DNA of 64,000 nt from Deinococcales bacterium (GTDB taxonomy: Bacteria; Deinococcota; Deinococci; Deinococcales; JAAFIG01): contig JAAFIG010000002.1 in NCBI GenBank assembly GCA_013298595.1, positions 204,781 through 268,780 on the forward strand. Direction: 5' to 3'. Positions within the stretch are counted from its first letter, which is position 1, and each line of letters begins with the position of its first letter. Of the stretch, positions 12,515 to 25,220 are shown piece after piece. The notes beneath the pieces were generated by a model. It had not been told where the DNA came from, searched no databases, and was given only the letters and a program-made list of their open reading frames with translations. Made by a program: the position numbers and the translations under genes.

Positions 12515-12646
12515 GGTGAACCAATATGGTTCAGGCTTGGCGGGCATTCGGGCTTTGACAGGTTGTCAATCACCGTTGCGGAACAGCGCTGGATTTGCAC
12601 CAGCTTCCCCACTTTCATCTCGGGTTACACACCTCGAGAACCAAGC
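12515..12646 (-). promoter_or_regulatory. Cobalamin (AdoCbl) riboswitch controlling btuFCD-cobU
   Basis: On the minus strand the conserved core reads GGGGAAGCTGGTGCAAATCC, then AGCGCTGTTCCGCAACGGTGA, followed by the B12-box-like GCCCGAATGCCCGCC and a GAACCATATTGGTTC hairpin. These are the invariant elements of the cobalamin riboswitch class (GGGAA..GGTG.AA.TCC, C.G..CC.GC.AC.GT). Exact boundaries are estimated. It is followed by an intrinsic terminator and the B12 uptake genes. Confidence 0.9.
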
Positions 12647-12686
12647 GTGGCTAGTTTACACTTTTTTTCGGGTTTGGCTACTGCCC

Positions 12687-12716
12687 TTGACAAATCTTGT
12701 TGACTCGAGCCACAAT
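12687..12716 (+). promoter_or_regulatory. Probable promoter of the efe iron-uptake operon
   Basis: TTGACA (12687-12692), an 18-nt spacer and CACAAT (12711-12716) place transcription start near 12723, at the edge of the palindromic operator 12726-12744. TAATAT at 12721-12726 is an alternative -10 with a poorer -35. Confidence 0.45.
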
Positions 12717-12725
12717 CTACTAATA

Positions 12726-12744
12726 TCCGACTTAACCACTAGGA
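12726..12744 (+). promoter_or_regulatory. Palindromic operator shared with the nitroreductase operon
   Basis: TCCGACTTAACCACTAGGA here and TCCGAGTTAACCACTCGGA (minus strand, 20255-20237) differ at two of 19 positions. Both straddle the predicted transcription start. The Rrf2-family protein encoded at 16046, the last gene of this operon, is the obvious candidate to bind it. Confidence 0.6.
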
Positions 12745-12765
12745 TTTATCGGATTAGGAGAACCC

Positions 12766-13794
12766 ATGAAAACCAAAAAAATTCTTCAGTGCATCATTGG
12801 TGTTGTTACTTTGTTAGCAAGCAGTGCATTAGCAGATAGCCCAACTGTTGTTAAAAGTTATTTACTAACACAAGTCACTTTGCAACAAAAAAGTACCAAC
12901 GCGTTAAAAAATGCAGCTCGGCGCTACTTTGATTTAGTGAAAGCACAAAATTTTAAGTACACGAAACTTGATGCAGCCGCTACCCGTAAGGCTGTACAAG
13001 AAGCTCGGGTAGCTTGGAGTAAAGCCAGCCCATTATACGAAAGTGTTGAAGGGATTGTGGCTGGCGTAGAAATGCTCGCCAGTTTCGACCTTAATTTAGA
13101 TGCTGGCTCGAGTGCCAAAGATGGTGGCGATGCGATTGTTGAATTTGATCTCAAACTCGGTAATGGTCAAGTCTTAGCCAAACCCGGCAATGCTTTTGGT
13201 GTGATCGAAGGCTCACTTTGGGGTACAGAAAAAACCTACTCGAGTGGTCTGCCATTTGATGTTGACGGTAACGGTAAAATTGATTTTGGCGATCAATTAC
13301 CAGATGCTTATGTATTACAAGCCGCAGCTGATAAATTAGATGAACTGACTGGGCAATTGCTCGAGACAGCCAAAAAATGGAATCCGACCACAGCTGATGT
13401 GTTTGCCGCGTTAGTGGCGAACGTACCAACAGCTGCCAGTGTTTTTATTGAACGCTGGAAAACCAGTCGGTTTGTGCTGGGCGAAAAAAGTACCCAACGC
13501 GATTTTAATGTGATCTCGAGCTTAAATGATTTGGTGCAAAATATCAGTAGCTGGCAAAACTTGTATAAAGGTGTAACCGCTGGTGTAAAAGCAAAGAATG
13601 CCGCCCTTGATGCCCAAATTAATACAGGTTTAAGTAGCTTAAAAAGTTGGGCACAAAAACTCGAAGCCCAAGAAAAAACCCGACGATTCACACCAGAACA
13701 AGCCGAAGCGATTGGTAAAGAAGGCGAAAATCGGGCAACTGCTCTCACAGGACGCATTAGCCAAGCCGCTGCATTACTTGGCGTGAAATTATAA
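12766..13794 (+). CDS. Imelysin/EfeM-like periplasmic iron-uptake protein
   Basis: This 342-residue exported protein has a signal peptide (MKTKKILQCIIGVVTLLASSALA) and the M75/EfeO C-domain pattern: ARVAWSKASPLYESVEGIVAGVE, GVIEGSLWG, and LPDAYVLQAAADKLDEL. Proteins of this family bind iron for the FTR1 permease, which is the next gene nine bases on. The ATG is preceded by TTAGGAGAA. It lacks the cupredoxin domain of full EfeO and so resembles EfeM. The sequence also has an acidic loop DVDGNGKIDFGD resembling an EF-hand. Confidence 0.82.
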   Translation: MKTKKILQCIIGVVTLLASSALADSPTVVKSYLLTQVTLQQKSTNALKNAARRYFDLVKAQNFKYTKLDAAATRKAVQEARVAWSKASPLYESVEGIVAGVEMLASFDLNLDAGSSAKDGGDAIVEFDLKLGNGQVLAKPGNAFGVIEGSLWGTEKTYSSGLPFDVDGNGKIDFGDQLPDAYVLQAAADKLDELTGQLLETAKKWNPTTADVFAALVANVPTAASVFIERWKTSRFVLGEKSTQRDFNVISSLNDLVQNISSWQNLYKGVTAGVKAKNAALDAQINTGLSSLKSWAQKLEAQEKTRRFTPEQAEAIGKEGENRATALTGRISQAAALLGVKL

Positions 13795-13803
13795 AGGACA
13801 AAA

Positions 13804-16044
13804 ATGCTGCGTTTTCTTGTACCCATTTTGTTGTTGCTCTCGAGCTTTGCATTTGCTTCTGAACCAAGCACGGCTGCCGAAATTGTCCGCGCCAGTCTGA
13901 GTTCAGCCCAAACCGAGTTAAGTTTTGATCCTGCCAGTAGTCAGGATTTACTACTGACCGCTAAAATTGCGTATCAAAATGGGTTATTGGGATTAGGTCA
14001 AGCCGATTTCTCGAGTTTAGAAAAAGCCTTAAAAATACGTGATGAAAAAGCTTTTGCCATTGCAACAGCCACCCTTTGGACAAGTATTTTACGTGGTGCT
14101 TACCAACAACTCGAGATCAGTTTGCAAAAACAAGATTTCAATGCAGCTCGAGCTTGGTTATTGGTGCGTGAATACCGTCGTGCCACAAAATTTAATCCAC
14201 CCGAAACCGAGGCAACCCTAGCCTTTGAAGCCTTAGCTGCAAAATCTGCTGATACAAAAAGTACTTTACTCGCCATCAAAGCCGACTTGCTTGGCACGTA
14301 TCAAGCGCGTTTATCCGAAGCATTACTTGAAGTTGAACGCAACCTTAAACGCAATTTTGGGGTTTTAGCCGCCCAAAATGCAGCCCTTGCCAATGGATAT
14401 TTTTTGTTGCTCGAGCAAGGGTATCCAAATGCCAAATTAGCAGCTGCAAAAATAGCTTTCAAAGCATTAGTTGCCCTTCCAAGCACAGCTTCGCTCCAAG
14501 TTGTACAAACCATGATACGGGGTTGGCGAGCTGCGCCATTATCAGAAACTGAACGCAACAAACGCGCTGCACAACTGATGCGGTTTTATAGTTTAATTCC
14601 TGTTGAGTATGCTCGGGGTGTCAAAACCGAAAATGGTTTGACCCAAATTACTCGAGATTTAGAAATCGCTGAAGCCACTGCTTTTTGGCAAGGTGCCAAT
14701 GCAGCTTTTACCGACCTTGAATCATTGTTGGTACAACGCAACGCGGACTTAACCGCTTCGGCTCGAGCAAACCTGCAATTAGTTGGACAACAACTCGAGT
14801 TAGCTTCCCGTAAACAACCTGTCTCACTGGCAGAATTACAACAAGCCATAGAGGCTGGACAAAAACCCCTCGAGCAATTAATTCCTGCTGCGTGGCGGGC
14901 CACTACCGCCAGTGCCGATTTAGTTGTGATTCGTCAACACCTCGGGCAGCTCGAAACGGCTTTACAACAAGGTGCTTTTGAACAAGCCGAAACCGCTCGA
15001 GTCAGTGCCTATGCTGTGCTTGAAAGTGGGGTTGAAGCCCGAATAAAGTTTTTTCAACCGCAATTAGCCACAGAAATCGAAATGCTTTTTTGGAACGGCT
15101 CAAACCCACTGGGTTTAGCTAAAATTATTGCAGAACAAGGTTCGCTTGAACAATTGCGTAACACCCGCCGAGAATTGCTGGTTAAACTCGAGCAAGCCGC
15201 TAAATTAGTCGGCACAGATACATCTCCAACAGCCACTTTTGTTAATGCTTTAGTGATTGTTTTCCGTGAGGGACTCGAGGCAGTGTTAATTCTGGCAGCT
15301 TTACTGGGTAGCTTAAAGCGTCCCGAGGTACGGCATTTACGTCGTCCATTATGGGTTGGGGCTATTGCAGCATTGTTTGCCAGTGCGCTGACTTTTTTAA
15401 TCATGCGTGGCATTGTCAATGCTTTCGCAGTTTTTGGTGAACGGCTCGAGGCTGTGGTGAGTGTGATTGCTGTTGTGGTGCTGCTCATTATTATGAATTG
15501 GTTTTTTCATAATGTCTACTGGAATGATCGTTTAGCCAGTTTCCATAAACAAAAGCATTCGTTGCTTGGTGTCAGCACAGGGCAAGGGCTGGGGTTATTG
15601 GTGTTGGGTTTTACTGCCATGTACCGCGAAGGTTTTGAAACTGCCTTATTTTTACAATCACTGGTTTTGCAATCAGGAGTCTCGAGTGTTTTATCGGGTA
15701 CGGCTGTGGCACTGGCAGCCGTGACGGTTGTTGGTGTGCTGGTTTTTGCTTTACAAACCAAATTGCCTCATAAGAAAATGTTGGTATTTACGGGTGTGCT
15801 GATTTGCGCCGTACTTTGGGTGATGGTTGGTAACACTGTACATATTTGGCAAGTGGTTGGTTGGTTACCCATTCATGCCATTGGTAATGGTTTCCCCGCA
15901 GCGATTGGTTTATGGCTTGGTACATTTGCAACGTGGGAAGGTATCTTGATACAAACCGTTGCGGTAACACTTGTAATTGGTTCGTACTTCCTTGCCGAAG
16001 GCTTAAAACACCGAACGATGCAACAAAAAGCAGCGGCAGCCTAA
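13804..16044 (+). CDS. FTR1-family iron permease with large N-terminal extracytoplasmic domain
   Basis: This 746-residue protein starts with a signal peptide (ends SFAFA), followed by about 450 mostly helical residues of unknown fold, then a seven-helix FTR1/EfeU domain. The domain carries both iron-transport motifs, REGLE at 488-492 and REGFE at 608-612. Such two-part FTR1 proteins occur in bacteria; the N-domain may help capture or oxidise iron, which is inferred. It sits between the EfeM-like gene and an Rrf2 regulator, one base before the latter. No EfeB peroxidase gene is nearby. Confidence 0.88.
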   Translation: MLRFLVPILLLLSSFAFASEPSTAAEIVRASLSSAQTELSFDPASSQDLLLTAKIAYQNGLLGLGQADFSSLEKALKIRDEKAFAIATATLWTSILRGAYQQLEISLQKQDFNAARAWLLVREYRRATKFNPPETEATLAFEALAAKSADTKSTLLAIKADLLGTYQARLSEALLEVERNLKRNFGVLAAQNAALANGYFLLLEQGYPNAKLAAAKIAFKALVALPSTASLQVVQTMIRGWRAAPLSETERNKRAAQLMRFYSLIPVEYARGVKTENGLTQITRDLEIAEATAFWQGANAAFTDLESLLVQRNADLTASARANLQLVGQQLELASRKQPVSLAELQQAIEAGQKPLEQLIPAAWRATTASADLVVIRQHLGQLETALQQGAFEQAETARVSAYAVLESGVEARIKFFQPQLATEIEMLFWNGSNPLGLAKIIAEQGSLEQLRNTRRELLVKLEQAAKLVGTDTSPTATFVNALVIVFREGLEAVLILAALLGSLKRPEVRHLRRPLWVGAIAALFASALTFLIMRGIVNAFAVFGERLEAVVSVIAVVVLLIIMNWFFHNVYWNDRLASFHKQKHSLLGVSTGQGLGLLVLGFTAMYREGFETALFLQSLVLQSGVSSVLSGTAVALAAVTVVGVLVFALQTKLPHKKMLVFTGVLICAVLWVMVGNTVHIWQVVGWLPIHAIGNGFPAAIGLWLGTFATWEGILIQTVAVTLVIGSYFLAEGLKHRTMQQKAAAA

Positions 16045-16045
16045 T

Positions 16046-16492
16046 ATGTGGATTTCGACTCGAGGGCAGTATGGTTTACGAGCATTGGTTGAACTTGCTC
16101 AGACAAATACGTTAATGCCAATTCATAAAATTGCTGAACGCCAAGATATCAGTTTGCATTATCTCGAGCAAATTCTGGCAACCATGCGCCGAGCTGGTTT
16201 TGTGCAAAGCGAACGAGGTGCCACAGGTGGTTACCGATTAGCTCGAGATGCCAAAAAAATCACGGCTTTAGAAGTTATTGTGGCACTCGAGGGGAGTCTT
16301 GCGCCTGTTGCTTGTGTTGAGGACTCGAGTCAGTGTAGTCACGTGAATGCTTGCGGCACAGAGAGCCTTTGGCGGCGAGTGGATGCAACGATCACGGGTA
16401 TTTTAGGTAGTTATACTGTGGCAGATTTACTCGAGGAAGCGCGTTTTCAGAATGCACTGAAAATGATGAAATCACAAGCTCCACTAGAGTAA
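16046..16492 (+). CDS. Rrf2 family transcriptional regulator with Fe-S type cysteines
   Basis: This 148-residue winged-helix protein has the Rrf2 pattern STRGQYGLRALVELAQ, ISLHYLEQIL, and GFVQSERGATGGYRLAR. Cysteines at 90, 97 and 103 (C-x6-C-x5-C) match the cluster-binding loop of IscR/NsrR-type members. It closes the EfeM-FTR1 operon one base after the permease stop. I infer that it senses Fe-S status and acts at the shared palindromes 12726-12744 and 20237-20255. It could also be a local housekeeping IscR. Confidence 0.88.
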   Translation: MWISTRGQYGLRALVELAQTNTLMPIHKIAERQDISLHYLEQILATMRRAGFVQSERGATGGYRLARDAKKITALEVIVALEGSLAPVACVEDSSQCSHVNACGTESLWRRVDATITGILGSYTVADLLEEARFQNALKMMKSQAPLE

Positions 16493-16516
16493 TACTGAAT
16501 CAATTTAATCACTTTC

Positions 16517-16578
16517 ATTTGACCATCTTGACCCTGAAAACAGCACCTCACGGGCTTGGGTCATAAAAGTGGTCAAAT
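16517..16578. terminator. Long hairpin between convergent iron operons
   Basis: ATTTGACCA...GACCC pairs with GGGTC...TGGTCAAAT, a two-part stem in both orientations. It lies just after the Rrf2 gene and faces the end of the PepSY operon, so it may serve both as terminator. Confidence 0.5.
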
Positions 16579-16605
16579 TGTTGTTCAAGCGTTCATTCGG
16601 TTCCT

Positions 16606-16653
16606 GTTCTTGCTCGCAAGACAGTACCTTGCGGACTGTTCGCACTTCGTCGG
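16606..16653. repeat. Dispersed ~48-bp repeat, copy 2 of 2
   Basis: TTGCTCGCAAGACAGTACC and CGGACTGTTCGCACTTCGTCG match 3285-3332. It is intergenic, between two convergent operons, followed by an AATCAGTC/GACTGATT inverted repeat at 16656-16681. Confidence 0.65.
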
Positions 16654-16697
16654 ATAATCAGTCAACATACACGACTGATTGACACAATTTGGTACAG

Positions 16698-17957
16698 CTA
16701 AATGATAATACGTTTCCTCAGGGATTCACTGCGTTTTGCGCGTTTTATCAGGTACATGCGTATACCTGTGATCGCCAGAAAGAGTGGTATTAATCCGAAT
16801 GCAAACCAAATGAGTCTTGCCCACCACGGTACGGCTATTCCAGCATGAATTGGGTAGAACCAATTTTCATACACGTTTGAACCAAATACTGCTAAACGAG
16901 TCTCGTTTTTGTCCAGCACTTTCCCAGAATACTGATCTATTGTTACACCATACTGACCAGGAAATTCACTAAATTGATACGGGTCTAAACCTTTGCTACC
17001 CCAAACGGTAATGGTTTGTTCTCGAGCGACTTTTTCGGCTTCTTCGTCTTTAAATTTGATATTTAAATCTGGTGTGCCTAAATTAATGATTCTTGAACCA
17101 ACAGGAAGTTCTTTGATTGCAATTTCTTGTAGTCTTGCCATTGAAATTTGGTCTTTGCTGGTTTTGTTTTTTGTCTCAGATTTTAGGTTTTCTGGTGCGG
17201 GTTGGACACTGGCAAAAGTGATGCCGTACCATGCTTTTTGGATCAGTGGACGAAATGGTTCGTAGAAATTCATGGCGGTTAAACCCCACATAGCAAGGAA
17301 TGGCAAGGCAGTAAAACCAAGTATTTTATGCCAGTCGTACTGACGAATGTATACTGAGCCAGTGCGTCTTAATTTAAAACTGTATGCTATTTTCTTGAGT
17401 CCAGGAAACCATAATACTGCGCCACTGAGAACCATAATACTGAGTGTCAATGCCACAATTTTAAGTACCAAGTCGGCTAGGGTTTCACCAATCCATTTTT
17501 GTAGCCATTCTGGTATCCATTGAGGAAAAGTCAATTTGACATCGCCTAAAAATAAGGCTGTGTGTAATTTTGCAAAGAATCCCATGAATGTAGCCGTGTC
17601 GCTTTTAACACCATTAATCAGCCCTGTACCAGGGTCTACGTAAACAGTTTTCTGGTTATCAAAACCCACGCTGGCATGGTACGGCGCATTTTCGGCAGCG
17701 CGAATAATCTCGTAAACAGGTTCTGTTGGGTAAGCTTTTTTGATGATTGCGGCGGCTTCGGCAAACGAAATGGTTTTTCCTTCGGTCACTTTATAGTATT
17801 TTTCATCAAGCATTTGGTCTATTTCTTGATGAAAAAGCGCAATAGAACCCGAAGTGGTAGTGACCAATAAAAGCATACCTAAAGTCAGTGTAGCCCACAA
17901 ATGAATACGTTGTAGCCAAACTCGAGGGCGAAATTTGAAACTTGGTTTTGTGTTCAT
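16698..17957 (-). CDS. PepSY-associated transmembrane protein (PiuB-like, probable ferric reductase)
   Basis: This 419-residue protein has four membrane helices (near 18-40, 165-190, 210-235, 385-405) and PepSY-type extracytoplasmic domains. Conserved histidines occur at HLWATLTLG, FHQEID, KLHTALFLGD, YDWHKILG and YPIHAGI. This family is iron-regulated and includes heme-binding membrane reductases, so ferric reduction is a reasonable inference. It is the last gene of a six-gene minus-strand operon with a flavodoxin. CTCGAG is scarce here (17020 and 17921 only), which may indicate later arrival than its neighbours. Confidence 0.85.
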   Translation of the reverse strand: MNTKPSFKFRPRVWLQRIHLWATLTLGMLLLVTTTSGSIALFHQEIDQMLDEKYYKVTEGKTISFAEAAAIIKKAYPTEPVYEIIRAAENAPYHASVGFDNQKTVYVDPGTGLINGVKSDTATFMGFFAKLHTALFLGDVKLTFPQWIPEWLQKWIGETLADLVLKIVALTLSIMVLSGAVLWFPGLKKIAYSFKLRRTGSVYIRQYDWHKILGFTALPFLAMWGLTAMNFYEPFRPLIQKAWYGITFASVQPAPENLKSETKNKTSKDQISMARLQEIAIKELPVGSRIINLGTPDLNIKFKDEEAEKVAREQTITVWGSKGLDPYQFSEFPGQYGVTIDQYSGKVLDKNETRLAVFGSNVYENWFYPIHAGIAVPWWARLIWFAFGLIPLFLAITGIRMYLIKRAKRSESLRKRIII

Positions 17958-17966
17958 GATGTCTCC

Positions 17967-18323
17967 TTAATCAGTAATGGTGAAAATAATCATGACAAAG
18001 AGCATCATGATGGCGAGCGGTAAGTACGCAAATCGTTTTGGATGGCGAACTTGCCAAATTCTTCGTAAACTCGAGATAAGTGCGATGAAAGCAACAGTGT
18101 TGAATAGCAAACCTAACCAAGTAGGTGTGGTGGTGACTATGCCAATAAGTGGTAGTACAAATGGCAACACCACGTACTGCACGATGCAGCGAATGGCTGA
18201 TATCAGTAAGGCGAGGTTGAATCCACTTTTGATACTCGAGGTTTGCGGTGTTTTGAGTGGTCGAATAAAAAGTAATTGCTCGAGTAATGAATCAAGTTTT
18301 TGTTGCTGAACATTTGGGTTCAT
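17967..18323 (-). CDS. Small membrane protein of the PepSY/flavodoxin operon
   Basis: This 118-residue protein starts MNPNVQQQKLDSLLEQLLF and has about three hydrophobic helices (GFNLALLISAIRCIVQYVVL, LGLLFNTVAFIALI, YLPLAIMMLFVMIIFTI). I do not recognise a named family. The start at 18323 overlaps the stop of the preceding gene as ATGA, so a longer frame upstream is ruled out. Co-transcription with the PepSY protein suggests a role in iron reduction or its membrane complex; that is inference only. Confidence 0.7.
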   Translation of the reverse strand: MNPNVQQQKLDSLLEQLLFIRPLKTPQTSSIKSGFNLALLISAIRCIVQYVVLPFVLPLIGIVTTTPTWLGLLFNTVAFIALISSLRRIWQVRHPKRFAYLPLAIMMLFVMIIFTITD

Positions 18324-18694
18324 AGGTGGTTTCCTTGAGTGGTTTGTAAAACCCGAATCACCATTGCAATCGTAAAAAAACAAGCTAATGCTAAATGGGT
18401 CGAGCGTTGACGAGGAGAGTCTTCTTGGAGGTAAACCCAGACACTTGGTATTGTTGCTTGGGCAACAACGACATAAGCCAGTGTCTCGAGTGATTTTGGT
18501 AGTGTTTGCCATAACAACAGTACGCAAGTGCTTTGTATGCCAAGGATGATTTGCAAGCTGATCAAGCCAAGTTGCCAATTGTGGCTGGGTGCGTGGTTTT
18601 GCCAAGCTAAAATTAGAATCCAAACGGCTAGAACGAGCAAGTAAGTGATGCTTGAAAAGGCAATGAGTGTTAATGTCTGATGAATTAAACCCAT
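18320..18694 (-). CDS. Four-helix hypothetical membrane protein
   Basis: This 124-residue protein starting MGLIHQTLTLIAF has four hydrophobic helices. It has a periplasmic histidine-containing loop (QNHAPSHNWQLG) between helices one and two. I do not recognise the family. The ATG at 18694 follows the flavodoxin stop by 23 bases; the longer frame overlaps the flavodoxin gene. It is coupled to the next membrane gene by ATGA. Its place between flavodoxin and the PepSY protein makes it a candidate electron-transfer membrane component. Confidence 0.7.
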   Translation of the reverse strand: MGLIHQTLTLIAFSSITYLLVLAVWILILAWQNHAPSHNWQLGLISLQIILGIQSTCVLLLWQTLPKSLETLAYVVVAQATIPSVWVYLQEDSPRQRSTHLALACFFTIAMVIRVLQTTQGNHL

Positions 18695-18717
18695 AAGAAT
18701 TCCAATTGGGTAGCTGC

Positions 18718-19245
18718 TCAGGCGATGGCAAGGCATAACTCGAGTTCTTTGATTAATTGTGATGACCAAGCTTGTAAACGTGGTTCGGTGAGCTTAGCTT
18801 GGTTATCATCATCTAATGCCAAGCCAATAAATTGTTGACCTTTTACAGCTCGAGAATTGCTGAACTGATAACCTTCTGTACTGGTTTGTCCGACTAAAGT
18901 TGCACCACAGAAAGCAAAGTGTTCGGCGAGTATCCCAAGGGCATCTTGAAAAGTATCAGCATACGTTAATTGGTCGCCCATACCAAAAAAAGCTGCTTTT
19001 TTATGCCTCAAATCAAGCTTCTTGAGAGCCTCAATTTTTCCATGCCAATCATCTTGAATTTCCCCAACATACCAAGTGCTGCAACCAATCAAGAGTACAT
19101 TGTACTCGAGTAATTTTTCGATTTTGACCAAGGCAATATCGTGGTTTGTTACCAGCGCACCACTGTCTTTGAATAATTTCTCGAGTCTATCAGCGGCGGC
19201 TCGAGTGTTGCCATAAGTACTACCTGTGAAGATACCTATTTTCAT
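18718..19245 (-). CDS. Flavodoxin (long-chain)
   Basis: This 175-residue FMN electron carrier has the phosphate-binding loop TGSTYGNTRAAADRLE at the N-terminus, LIGCSTWYVGEIQDDW, FFGMGDQLTYADTFQDALG and GYQFSNSRAV. Its length is typical of long-chain flavodoxins, which replace ferredoxin under iron shortage. It sits in an iron-type operon with a nitroreductase homolog and a PepSY protein, so it may carry electrons for ferric reduction. A short CTTA-rich gap separates it from the gene upstream. Confidence 0.92.
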   Translation of the reverse strand: MKIGIFTGSTYGNTRAAADRLEKLFKDSGALVTNHDIALVKIEKLLEYNVLLIGCSTWYVGEIQDDWHGKIEALKKLDLRHKKAAFFGMGDQLTYADTFQDALGILAEHFAFCGATLVGQTSTEGYQFSNSRAVKGQQFIGLALDDDNQAKLTEPRLQAWSSQLIKELELCLAIA

Positions 19246-19276
19246 AACGCAATCACAAGACTTTTCATAAGACTCC

Positions 19277-19639
19277 TTAATTCACCAGCAGGCTCGAGTG
19301 GCTGATTTTTGGTACCAATAAAAACTCGTTGATTTGTGGTGCAGCTTCAAAAATTAAATCCAAGAATTCTTGCCAATCGGGGTTGCTAAAACCAAGGGCA
19401 GCCATGCCAATCCAAAGTTGAACGCCACTATGGGCGCGTTTTAAGGCATGAGCGCCATCTTTCATTTCGGCTTCAAGGTTTTTTTTGCTGGTCTCGAGAA
19501 AGGCTGCCAAGTTATTAAAATCAGGTATTGCCAGTGTCCAGCAACTGATTTGCCAATGCACAAAAACCGTGCCATGTTCGCATTGCGCCACAAAGCGGTA
19601 CTCGGAACGAGTAGCTATCGGACGAACAATCAGGCACAT
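19277..19639 (-). CDS. Hypothetical protein of the iron operon
   Basis: This 120-residue soluble protein starts MCLIVRPIATRSEYRFVAQCEHGTV after AAAGGAG at a good distance, which fixes the start at 19639. I do not recognise the family. It has a compact Cys-x-His-Gly (CEHG) motif followed by VFVHWQISCWTLAIPDF, suggesting a possible metal-binding site, then a helical C-terminal half. It starts 11 bases after the nitroreductase stop and precedes flavodoxin. Confidence 0.7.
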   Translation of the reverse strand: MCLIVRPIATRSEYRFVAQCEHGTVFVHWQISCWTLAIPDFNNLAAFLETSKKNLEAEMKDGAHALKRAHSGVQLWIGMAALGFSNPDWQEFLDLIFEAAPQINEFLLVPKISHSSLLVN

Positions 19640-19650
19640 AAATAACTCCT

Positions 19651-20223
19651 TTACTCGAGCCAACGGGTGTTACTGCTGGCAGGTTTTAGATTTTGATACA
19701 CACCTGCAATCGGGTAGCCAATATGTAAAAGTCCAACCAGTTCTTCGTTATTCTCGAGTTTGAAAATATCGGCGGTGCTTGGATGACGCACCAGATAACC
19801 ACTGCGCCACCAAATAGCTAATCCTCGTGCATGAGCCGCTAAGGTCAGGTTTTGAATAGCACAGCAAACAGCGGCGTAGTCTTCGCGTTGTGCCCGAATG
19901 TTTTGGCTGTTGGTGTACTGAACACTGACTGCTACTAAGGCGGGGGCTTGATGCAGCATTTTAGCGGTTTGGAGAGCGGCATTAGAGCCAGCGATACCTC
20001 GGGTCACATCATGGGCTATTCGGGTTAAACGGGTCCGCGTTATTTTTCCAGGAACACTAAATCGCCAAGGTTGTGCCAGTCTCGAGCAGGGTGCATGAAT
20101 TGCGAGTTCGAGTAATTCGCGTAGGGTATGTTCAGCGATTGGGGCGTTCTGGAAGCGTCTGGCGCTGCGCCATTCAAGAAGAGCGCAGTCTATGGGTTGG
20201 GAGGGGTTAGGAAGGATTTGCAT
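19651..20223 (-). CDS. Nitroreductase family flavoprotein
   Basis: This 190-residue FMN-binding oxidoreductase has RRSARRFQ-like start LEWRSARRFQNAPI, APCSRLAQPWRF (FMN contacts) and a C-terminal GLLHIGYPIAG. Members reduce flavins, quinones or nitro compounds with NAD(P)H. As first gene of the flavodoxin/PepSY operon it could supply reduced flavin, which is inferred. A good promoter and a perfect palindromic operator precede it. Confidence 0.85.
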   Translation of the reverse strand: MQILPNPSQPIDCALLEWRSARRFQNAPIAEHTLRELLELAIHAPCSRLAQPWRFSVPGKITRTRLTRIAHDVTRGIAGSNAALQTAKMLHQAPALVAVSVQYTNSQNIRAQREDYAAVCCAIQNLTLAAHARGLAIWWRSGYLVRHPSTADIFKLENNEELVGLLHIGYPIAGVYQNLKPASSNTRWLE

Positions 20224-20236
20224 ATTTTCTGAGTAT

Positions 20237-20255
20237 TCCGAGTGGTTAACTCGGA
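20237..20255 (-). promoter_or_regulatory. Palindromic operator of the nitroreductase-PepSY operon
   Basis: TCCGAGTTAACCACTCGGA on the minus strand has perfect 7-bp arms (TCCGAGT/ACTCGGA). It overlaps the predicted start of transcription (~20253) and nearly matches 12726-12744 in front of the FTR1 operon. Confidence 0.65.
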
Positions 20256-20259
20256 TTTA

Positions 20260-20288
20260 ATTTAAGCGAATAGCCCTAGGTTTGTCAA
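20260..20288 (-). promoter_or_regulatory. Promoter of the nitroreductase-PepSY operon
   Basis: On the minus strand TTGACA (20288-20283), a 17-nt spacer and TTAAAT (20265-20260). The resulting start falls inside the palindrome 20237-20255, an arrangement expected for repression. Confidence 0.7.
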
Positions 20289-22963: not shown

Positions 22964-23982
22964 GTTTATTTTTACGTGCCTTACATGGCGAAAATACCAG
23001 TACCGCTCCGATTTGGGTGATGCGCCAAGCAGGTCGGTATTTACCTGAGTACATGGCAATCAAAGCCAAATCCAGTTTTCTCGAGATGGTGCAAACCCCT
23101 GAGTTAGCGGCTGAAATTACGTTGCAACCGATCAATCGGTTTGCTTTGGATGCCGCGATTATTTTTTCGGACATCATGACCCCATTACCTGCAATGGGTA
23201 TAAACGTTGACTTTGCGCCAGGTCCAGTGGTGACTCCTGTTCGTAGTGTGCAAGCCATTACTGTTTTACGCATTCCACAAGCGGCTGAAATAGCACCATT
23301 TATGCAAAAAGCAATTGAGTTGGTCAGTGCTGAACTGATTCATAAAAACATTCCGTTGATTGGTTTTGCAGGCGCACCTTTAACCTTGGCTGCGTACTTG
23401 GTGCAAGGCAGTGGGAGCAAGGATTTCGAGGATTTTCGGGCTTGGTTGCGTTTAGAACCAAAATTGGCTCATTTACTGCTCGAGAAATTAACCGAAGTAA
23501 CAATTAGCTATCTGCAAATGCAAGTGGCAGCGGGTGCAAAAGCCATTCAATTGTTTGATTCTTGGGCAGGGTTGCATTCGGCAAGGATGTACCACGAATT
23601 TGCTTTCCCGTATAACCAACGTATTTTATCGGCATTACAGGGTTTGGTGCCACGAATTTACTTAGCGGTTGGCGCGAGTCATTTGTATTCGCAGATGAGT
23701 ACCTTGGCTTGCGAGGCGGTCAGTGTGGATTGGCGTACACCCCTGCAACAAGTGCGGTTGGCATTGCCACATAAAACGCTGCAAGGTAACCTCGACCCAG
23801 CCGCTTTACTTGGCACACCAAAAACAATGGCACTCGAGGCGCAACAAGTCTTAGAAGCTGGTTTGGGAGGAGCGCATATTTTCAATTTAGGTCATGGTAT
23901 TTTTCGCCAAACCAATCCCGATATGCTCAGCCGACTGATAGACCAAGTTCATGAATTTCAGCGCTTAGGAGATACGCCATGA
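22960..23982 (+). CDS. hemE: Uroporphyrinogen decarboxylase
   Basis: This 340-residue enzyme removes four carboxylates to give coproporphyrinogen III. It shows the signature [16 protein letters not shown] near the N-terminus, [38 protein letters not shown] and [16 protein letters not shown]. The start at 22960 overlaps the hemB stop as ATGA; an earlier in-frame ATG at 22954 lies inside hemB. Confidence 0.96.
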
Positions 23983-25220
23983 CGGCTGTATTGGCAGCTC
24001 CCACGCGGACTGGTTTAGATTACTGTGCAGCTTTTACAAAAACCCTGCAAGGTTTACACCAAGAAGGGCGTTATCGGGTGTTTACCGAACTCGAGCGACC
24101 CGCAGATCGTTTTCCCACAGCCTTATGGCACTCGAGTTCAGGGGTGCGTGAAGTGACGATTTGGTGTTCTAACGATTACCTCAATATGGGGCATCATCCG
24201 AAGGTACTGAAAGCCATGCAGCAAGCCATTACCGATGGTGCAACAGGGGCTGGGGGTACACGTAACATTGGTGGTAATCATCATTACCATGTGCAACTCG
24301 AGCAATTACTTGCTACGTTGCATCATAAAGAAGCTGCCTTGAGTTTTACGTCGGGTTGGGTTGCGAATCTTACGGCTTTAACAGTGATTGGTCAGGTGTT
24401 GCCCAATGCAATTATTTTATCCGATGCCGAAAATCATAATTCAATGATCGAAGGGATTAAACGCAGCGGTGCAAAACGCCTTATTTTTAAGCACAACGAT
24501 TTATTTGACCTCGAGCAGCATTTGCAAAGCATTCCATTTGACCAACCCAAAATGATTGCTTTTGAAAGCCTTTATTCAATGGATGGTGATATTGCCCCTA
24601 TCGCAGCAATTTGCGATTTAGCACAAAAATACAACGCACTGACTTACCTTGATGAAGTCCACGCGGTTGGATTGTACGGCGCACATGGTGGAGGACAAGC
24701 CCAAGCCCAAGGTGTAGAAGACCGTGTTGATCTGATTCAAGGCACTCTTGGTAAGGCTTTTGGTTTGCAAGGTGGTTATATTGCAGGTAAGGCGATTATG
24801 ATTGATGCGATTCGTAGTTTAGGAGCAGGGTTTATTTTTTCAACAGCCATGCCCCCAATAATTGCCGCAGGCGCGCTTGCCAGTATTCAACACTTAATGC
24901 ACTCGAGCTACGAGCGCACTTTGCAACAACACCAAGCAAGGTACTTAAAGCAATTGTTGCTCGAGGCAAATTTACCCGTCATGCCATCACCGAGCCATAT
25001 TGTGCCTGTACTGGTCGGTCATGCTGCCGTTTGCAAAAAAATCAGTGATGCGTTACTCGAGCAACATGGTATTTATGTGCAACCAATTAATTATCCTACT
25101 GTGGCAAAAGGCACGGAGCGTTTACGCTTTACCCCAAGCCCAAAGCACAGCACTGCCCAATTGCAAGCCTTGGTGATTGCTTTAAGACAAGTTTGGCAGC
25201 AATTTGGATTAGTCCTTTAA
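23979..25220 (+). CDS. hemA: 5-Aminolevulinate synthase (C4/Shemin pathway)
   Basis: This 413-residue PLP enzyme makes ALA from glycine and succinyl-CoA. Diagnostic stretches are [84 protein letters not shown] and the PLP lysine in [14 protein letters not shown]. These fit ALAS better than the related KBL or BioF enzymes, and the gene ends the heme operon. No glutamyl-tRNA reductase or hemL is in the window. ALAS is characteristic of Alphaproteobacteria and is sporadic elsewhere. Its 3' end overlaps convergent hemF by 12 bp. Confidence 0.93.

Follow-up and report, generated by a model that had tools for sequence, protein, structure and literature searches.

A conserved IscR type-1-like operator shared by convergent FTR1 and nitroreductase–PepSY operons in a Deinococcales genome

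The locus: two convergent operons

The window, i.e., the whole 64-kb stretch that was analysed, comes from a Deinococcales MAG, an uncultured relative of Deinococcus, and contains two convergent operons, each of which starts with a promoter-like sequence followed by a 19-bp palindrome. Their features are listed below in the order of the forward strand.

12687..12716, plus strand: predicted promoter of the imelysin–FTR1–Rrf2 operon, TTGACA-18-CACAAT (consensus scan, 10/12 matches)
12726..12744, plus strand: operator copy 1, TCCGACTTAACCACTAGGA (pattern search; 26.0 bits with an independent matrix)
12766..13794, plus strand: imelysin (M75, EfeM/EfeO-like) periplasmic protein (PF09375, 63 bits)
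13804..16044, plus strand: FTR1 iron permease with a long N-terminal domain (PF03239, 96 bits)
16046..16492, plus strand: Rrf2 regulator, IscR-like, with Cys90/97/103 (PF02082, 136.3 bits; alignment to E. coli IscR)
16698..17957, minus strand: PepSY_TM protein, putative di-heme ferric or siderophore reductase (PF03929, 165 bits)
17967..18323, minus strand: small membrane protein MP5 (relative on a Rubrobacter plasmid)
18320..18694, minus strand: small membrane protein MP6 of no family (open frame; Pfam matches sub-threshold only)
18718..19245, minus strand: long-chain flavodoxin (TIGR01752, 179 bits, cut-off 146.75)
19277..19639, minus strand: DUF6686-like small protein, Unk8 (relatives, and a weak DUF6686 match of those relatives)
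19651..20223, minus strand: nitroreductase-family flavoprotein (PF00881, 81.5 bits)
20237..20255, minus strand: operator copy 2, TCCGAGTTAACCACTCGGA (pattern search; 29.8 bits with an independent matrix)
20259..20288, minus strand: predicted promoter of the nitroreductase–PepSY operon, TTGACA-18-TAAATT (consensus scan, 10/12 matches)

The convergent arrangement that an earlier note on this DNA had described from the sequence alone holds, and its calls of imelysin, FTR1, Rrf2, PepSY_TM, flavodoxin and nitroreductase were upheld by profile searches. The FTR1 protein has two REXXE motifs (REGLE at 488 and REGFE at 608), and scores below the EfeU equivalog cut-off (70.3 vs 255 bits) as well as below that of TIGR00145. 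Relatives sharing 72, 55 and 53% identity with it come from Deinococcales MAGs. Both within the family and in other families of the order, imelysin and FTR1 remain paired; in the nearest relatives, neither the Rrf2 gene nor the second operon adjoins them. Of the gene set that the earlier note had proposed to look for in related genomes, the imelysin–FTR1 pair recurs together with its operator, and in the nearest relatives the adjacent Rrf2 gene and second operon do not.

The combination of an FTR1 permease with an imelysin protein is the feature common to this locus and the EfeUOB/EfeM systems. In contrast to those systems, the third gene here encodes Rrf2 rather than EfeB/DyP, and the redox partners are encoded in the second operon; open reading frames and profile searches revealed no EfeB/DyP gene in either operon. 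A sequence search of the imelysin against the PDB gave no match. No HxxE motif was found in the protein, the matching stretch being ESVE. Back to back with the FTR1 operon, a cobalamin riboswitch (12522-12660, minus strand, 51.6 bits) precedes BtuF-, BtuC- and BtuD-like genes.

One operator at both operon starts and across Deinococcota

The two near-identical palindromes, one for each operon of the convergent pair and 7.5 kb apart, lie 20-30 bp 5' of the first genes. The two best promoter-like matches of the region end 9 bp (12687-12716) and 3 bp (20288-20259) before them. Both palindromes were thus found exactly as the earlier note had written them, just 3' of promoter-like sequences, in agreement with its placing them at the predicted transcription starts. 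A pattern search of the window at up to 3 mismatches yielded no third match, and two matches were obtained in 0/100 dinucleotide shuffles of the window; with the independent matrix, the best non-operator site in the window reached 12.7 bits. In the genome-wide search that the earlier note had suggested, TCCGASTNNNNNASTCGGA at up to 1 mismatch matched at just these two operon starts in 4.58 Mb and its reversed control pattern had zero matches, but a naive composition estimate gives about 2 sites at this stringency per 4.6 Mb, so the genome-wide count alone is not significant. The significance lies in the placement of the sites at the starts of both operons and in their conservation in relatives. 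Two further close matches in the genome (G000:C1:158985 and C1:178508) were rejected as operators, as they are not at promoters.

The form of the operator across Deinococcota is TCCGAsT-N5-AsTCGGA. It heads the FTR1 operon, in the same position, in a genome of the same genus (G001) and in one of the same family (G003). Further operators precede the genes for FbpA and FbpC in G001 and for FbpA in G003, and G002 has only a degenerate one, before FbpA. The genome of the window itself has a third, weaker copy before FbpA (G000:C1:301534, 18.1 bits), so the regulon comprises at least three operons and the earlier description of it as a two-operon regulon does not stand.

A strict-pattern search was run over 111 genomes, and 60 matches were fetched and read. 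Among them were sites before FbpA (G005, G052), before FecB-, FecC- and FecE-like genes, and before FeoAB, an imelysin and a SufT-like Fe-S assembly gene. Promoters of iron or Fe-S genes accounted for 9/60 strict-pattern sites and 0/40 reversed-pattern controls (one-sided Fisher p=0.008), in a classification that was unblinded and with controls that were drawn among the matches listed and covered fewer families. Matches at 1 mismatch in GC-rich genomes were mostly intragenic.

In iron gene clusters of family f5, imelysin–FTR1, a FecB-like gene and a nitroreductase gene are each preceded by the operator; random sequence totalling 1.57 Mb, scanned as the null, gave 2 matches of at least 15 bits. 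The presence of the operator before both FTR1 and nitroreductase in f5 supports one regulon for FTR1 and the nitroreductase group. Among the fetched nitroreductase loci, the operator is at the start only in the two closest relatives (G015 and G025), within the iron gene cluster; the remoter ones have none at the start, and at one further locus, L238, a strong match lies at another point of the sequence retrieved. In families f4 and f5, the right half of the operator is degenerate and merges with the -35 box. The shared operator, the co-regulation and the link to iron that the earlier note had proposed are therefore well supported, as the same operator precedes imelysin–FTR1 and a related nitroreductase in another family of the order, and many other iron genes besides.

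Two further observations concern imperfect copies. A degenerate one follows a PAP2-like gene in the genome of the window (L057:6985-7003, L083:7636), at the position that an operator and FbpA occupy in G003, and may be what is left of an FbpA operon since lost. Two Thermus-like genomes (L138:1738-2154 and L141:996-1412) have a near-operator flanked by a small gene of the Rrf2 family and a gene for a membrane protein.

The second operon and the question of reductive uptake

Relatives of the DUF6686-like protein adjoin flavodoxin in the iron gene clusters of family f5, where the pair belongs to siderophore ABC clusters. A model of the window protein (mean pLDDT 76) has a predicted PUR-like strand–helix fold, and structural comparison placed it nearest to PUR-like and DUF155 folds, with Z of 8 to 10 (DUF155 9.6, PURA 9.5); these neighbours were set aside as uninformative with respect to function. 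Within Deinococcota, conservation alongside FTR1 does not extend to PepSY, MP5 or MP6. MP5 had been considered as a conserved FTR1 partner, and was rejected for want of any relative in the 111 Deinococcota genomes. Divergent from the nitroreductase operon is a hemC...hemE cluster that ends with a 5-aminolevulinate synthase gene (23979-25220, plus strand, TIGR01821, 611 bits); the enzyme, here in a Deinococcales genome, is of the C4 type.

FoxB-type proteins mediate ferrisiderophore reduction through two hemes (PMC13038864). The PepSY protein of the window matches the FoxB structure 7abw (E=3.6e-4), and three of its four histidines His19, 132, 210 and 371 align with FoxB, while His132 is found in a homologue from Priestia megaterium. 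The latter, its best plasmid homologue, is encoded after FTR1, EfeO and EfeB, and the relative of MP5 on a Rubrobacter plasmid directly follows a ferric-reductase-like gene. The match to FoxB and the Priestia and Rubrobacter contexts make it likely, as far as sequence can tell, that the window PepSY is a ferric reductase. It shares the PepSY_TM family and the di-heme-type histidines with the FoxB-type siderophore reductases; however, the similarity is weak, and the window has two additional small membrane proteins and no adjacent TonB receptor. Electrons would pass from the flavodoxin or the nitroreductase to PepSY, which would in turn be linked to FTR1.

Reductive iron uptake, as proposed in the earlier note, is thus plausible on these comparisons: it gains from the FoxB-like PepSY and from the plasmid homologue in an FTR1–EfeO–EfeB operon, while the reductase role is one that we infer. 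The most serious competing explanation, which we rate as possible and somewhat short of an even chance, is that these are co-regulated iron-starvation genes rather than components of one uptake pathway, with flavodoxin and nitroreductase replacing Fe-S enzymes and PepSY_TM acting on another substrate, siderophore or copper. Flavodoxin is the classical iron-sparing substitute for ferredoxin in low iron, and the f5 pair of flavodoxin and DUF6686-like protein in siderophore ABC clusters would fit this explanation as well. In addition, CrpH, a PepSY_TM protein, is tied to copper (PMC13038864), which keeps a copper role for the window PepSY_TM a live alternative. The plasmid contexts, in which the nearest PepSY homologue belongs to an FTR1 cluster and the MP5 homologue adjoins a ferric-reductase-like gene, speak instead for a single pathway.

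The Rrf2 paralogue and the housekeeping IscR

The Rrf2 gene begins 1 bp after FTR1, as the third gene in the operon headed by the operator. Cys90, Cys97 and Cys103 of its product align with C92, C98 and C104 of E. coli IscR, and the column of the fourth ligand of the latter, His107, is occupied by Glu. The DNA contacts Y41, E43, Q44 and R59 of E. coli IscR are kept, and S40 is replaced by His, as it also is in the housekeeping IscR-like proteins of the phylum. The recognition segment SLHYLEQ is identical in the window Rrf2 and in the IscR of its genome. The protein scores below the NCBIfam equivalog cut-offs of both IscR (103.9 vs 207.55 bits) and RirA (71.3 vs 193 bits); as it misses the former, we call it IscR-like rather than IscR.

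Housekeeping IscR-like proteins were found in 60/61 genomes searched; identity between the window Rrf2 and those of its own genome and of relatives is 57 to 60%. Among the genomes searched, the paralogue itself occurs in the genome of the window only, and G001 to G003 are without it. In the Rrf2 tree, this fast-evolving copy groups with the IscR proteins of the phylum on a long branch, but its place among them is not strongly supported. The housekeeping iscR gene of the window's genome (G000:C31) precedes a cysteine desulfurase gene, and its promoter has a Fur-like box, which is the only one in the genome within 1 mismatch. At housekeeping iscR genes (L052 upstream of 10031; promoters of families f4 and f5), the 5' element is AAAACCC-N12-GGGTTTT-like and resembles IscR type-2 sites, and in family f1 it is a Fur-like box.

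Judged by its sequence, the Rrf2 of the FTR1 operon is likely a local repressor of both operons. Since G001 and G003 have the operator and lack the paralogue, the ancestral binder is best taken as the housekeeping IscR, and the paralogue as a captured local copy. Moreover, as the operator is kept in relatives without the paralogue, the latter cannot be the general binder, and the IscR of the phylum must also act there. The earlier suggestion of Rrf2 as the Fe-S sensor and regulator is therefore supported in part: the type-1 geometry of the operator, the four retained DNA-contact residues and the three cysteines agree with it, whereas the persistence of the operator in relatives devoid of the paralogue does not.

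It might be argued that the housekeeping IscR (G000:C31) is the sole binder of the operator, and that the Rrf2 of the FTR1 operon has diverged in role and owes its position to chance. The operators of G001 and G003, the long branch of the paralogue and the near-universal occurrence of housekeeping IscR-like genes would all fit such an explanation, but the paralogue has retained the recognition helix and all three cysteines, and it is encoded immediately after FTR1 in an operon that the operator heads. We consider this explanation unlikely, and retain the paralogue as the probable local repressor.

By sequence, an operator of the IscR type-1 class

The operator is a 7-5-7 palindrome with CCGAsT/AsTCGG half-sites, an architecture of the IscR type-1 class. 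It agrees with the E. coli IscR type-1 consensus in the spacing, the CCGAsT half-sites and the A/T flanks. A matrix was built from 14 sites of other genomes, with the window and E. coli left out. Applied to 5 kb of the E. coli isc locus, this matrix ranked the type-1 sites of the iscR promoter first and second (17.0 and 10.8 bits), the next-best site scoring 2.1 bits. Contrary to E. coli, where type-1 sites precede isc, the matrix found no good copy in the housekeeping iscR region of the window's genome, where the top site within 19 kb reached 9.4 bits and lay away from iscR. The RisR operator, GAC-N7-GTC, has the same geometry as that of the window (PMC9973013). By its form and distribution, the palindrome is best explained as a real operator, belonging to an iron regulon of the IscR/Rrf2 class that extends across Deinococcota.

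Binding of the palindrome by another iron regulator, of the Fur or DtxR family, with a merely convergent likeness to IscR type-1 sites, appears quite improbable. Fur-like boxes do lie beside some iron promoters of the order, so Fur probably has a part in its iron control. However, the palindrome is without the Fur-box core (TGAGAATNATTCTCA), no match to TGAGAATNATTCTCA at up to 3 mismatches was found near either window promoter, the single Fur-like box of the genome is that before iscR, and the independent matrix picks the known E. coli IscR type-1 sites. That the palindromes are a product of chance or a duplicated promoter fragment of no regulatory meaning is extremely improbable, even though composition predicts a similar number of sites within 1 mismatch, as they occupy both operon starts, are conserved in other families and are enriched before iron genes, which is not the occurrence at random sites that the earlier note had named as evidence against its proposal.

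Proposed mechanism

Computation shows that the operator is shared and conserved, that it is of the IscR type-1 class, and to which families the genes belong; which protein binds, the repression in iron-replete cells and the role of the reductase we infer. With ample iron and Fe-S clusters, an Rrf2 dimer carrying its cluster would bind TCCGAsT-N5-AsTCGGA at the transcription start and block both operons, and when iron is short, Rrf2 would lose its cluster and both operons would be expressed. Encoded third in the FTR1 operon, Rrf2 would exert negative feedback, and the IscR of the phylum may bind the same sites as this diverged copy. The FTR1 operon would provide the periplasmic imelysin and the permease, and the second operon the redox partners, namely, flavodoxin, the nitroreductase-type flavoprotein and the FoxB-like di-heme PepSY_TM, which could reduce periplasmic ferric chelates and pass ferrous iron to FTR1. 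Taken as a whole, this explanation, i.e., a shared IscR/Rrf2-class operator, repression in iron-replete cells, Rrf2 as the local repressor and redox partners from the second operon, seems to us fairly probable.

We regard the phylum-wide operator as a more important result than the local pair of operons. A broader reading, which we put forward only tentatively, is that iron uptake in Deinococcota (FbpABC, FTR1–imelysin, FeoAB and siderophore ABC systems) is mostly under IscR-type, type-1 control, and that a duplicated sensor was captured by the FTR1 operon for a dedicated two-operon reductive pathway with a flavodoxin-fed di-heme PepSY reductase.

Precedents and significance

The closest functional parallel, by analogy, is IscR of Rhodobacter sphaeroides, an iron repressor that binds a 19-bp Iron-Rhodo-box before feoAB, afuA, irpA and siderophore genes (PMC4618611). 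The 19-bp palindrome, the IscR-type Rrf2 protein, the FbpA-like (afuA) and feoAB targets and the sites at or near -35/-10 are common to both cases. The Rhodobacter regulator differs in that it comes from another phylum, uses a single Cys (PMC4618611) and controls no FTR1–PepSY–flavodoxin operon pair, and the window adds a second, operon-borne Rrf2. Two ferric reductases of Streptococcus pneumoniae, one flavin-type and one putatively di-heme, are under the Rrf2 repressor SifR together with an iron transporter, the ABC system Piu; SifR is a thiol quinone sensor with a 19-bp operator, TGTAA-N9-TTACA, whose 5-N9-5 geometry is the same as that of the window operator (PMC9218516). In contrast to SifR, the window has TCCGA-N9-TCGGA as the operator, three cysteines in Rrf2 instead of a single sensing one, and FTR1 instead of Piu. 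Given these two close precedents (PMC9218516, PMC4618611), the statement of the earlier note that this combination had not been described is only partly right; the literature searched contained no description of a Rrf2/IscR iron regulon in Deinococcota.

If correct, our reading would name the iron-uptake operator of a whole phylum, add to the alphaproteobacterial cases found another group in which cluster-sensing Rrf2 proteins of the IscR type govern iron import, and offer a testable source of ferrous iron for a bacterial FTR1, namely, a co-regulated PepSY-type reductase.

A separate feature of the genome is the abundance of CTCGAG, which occurs 416 times in the window vs 12.6 times expected by composition, at a density that is the same on other contigs of this genome, in G001-G003 and in G012 (the family and part of the order). 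It is a HIP1-like genome-wide palindrome.
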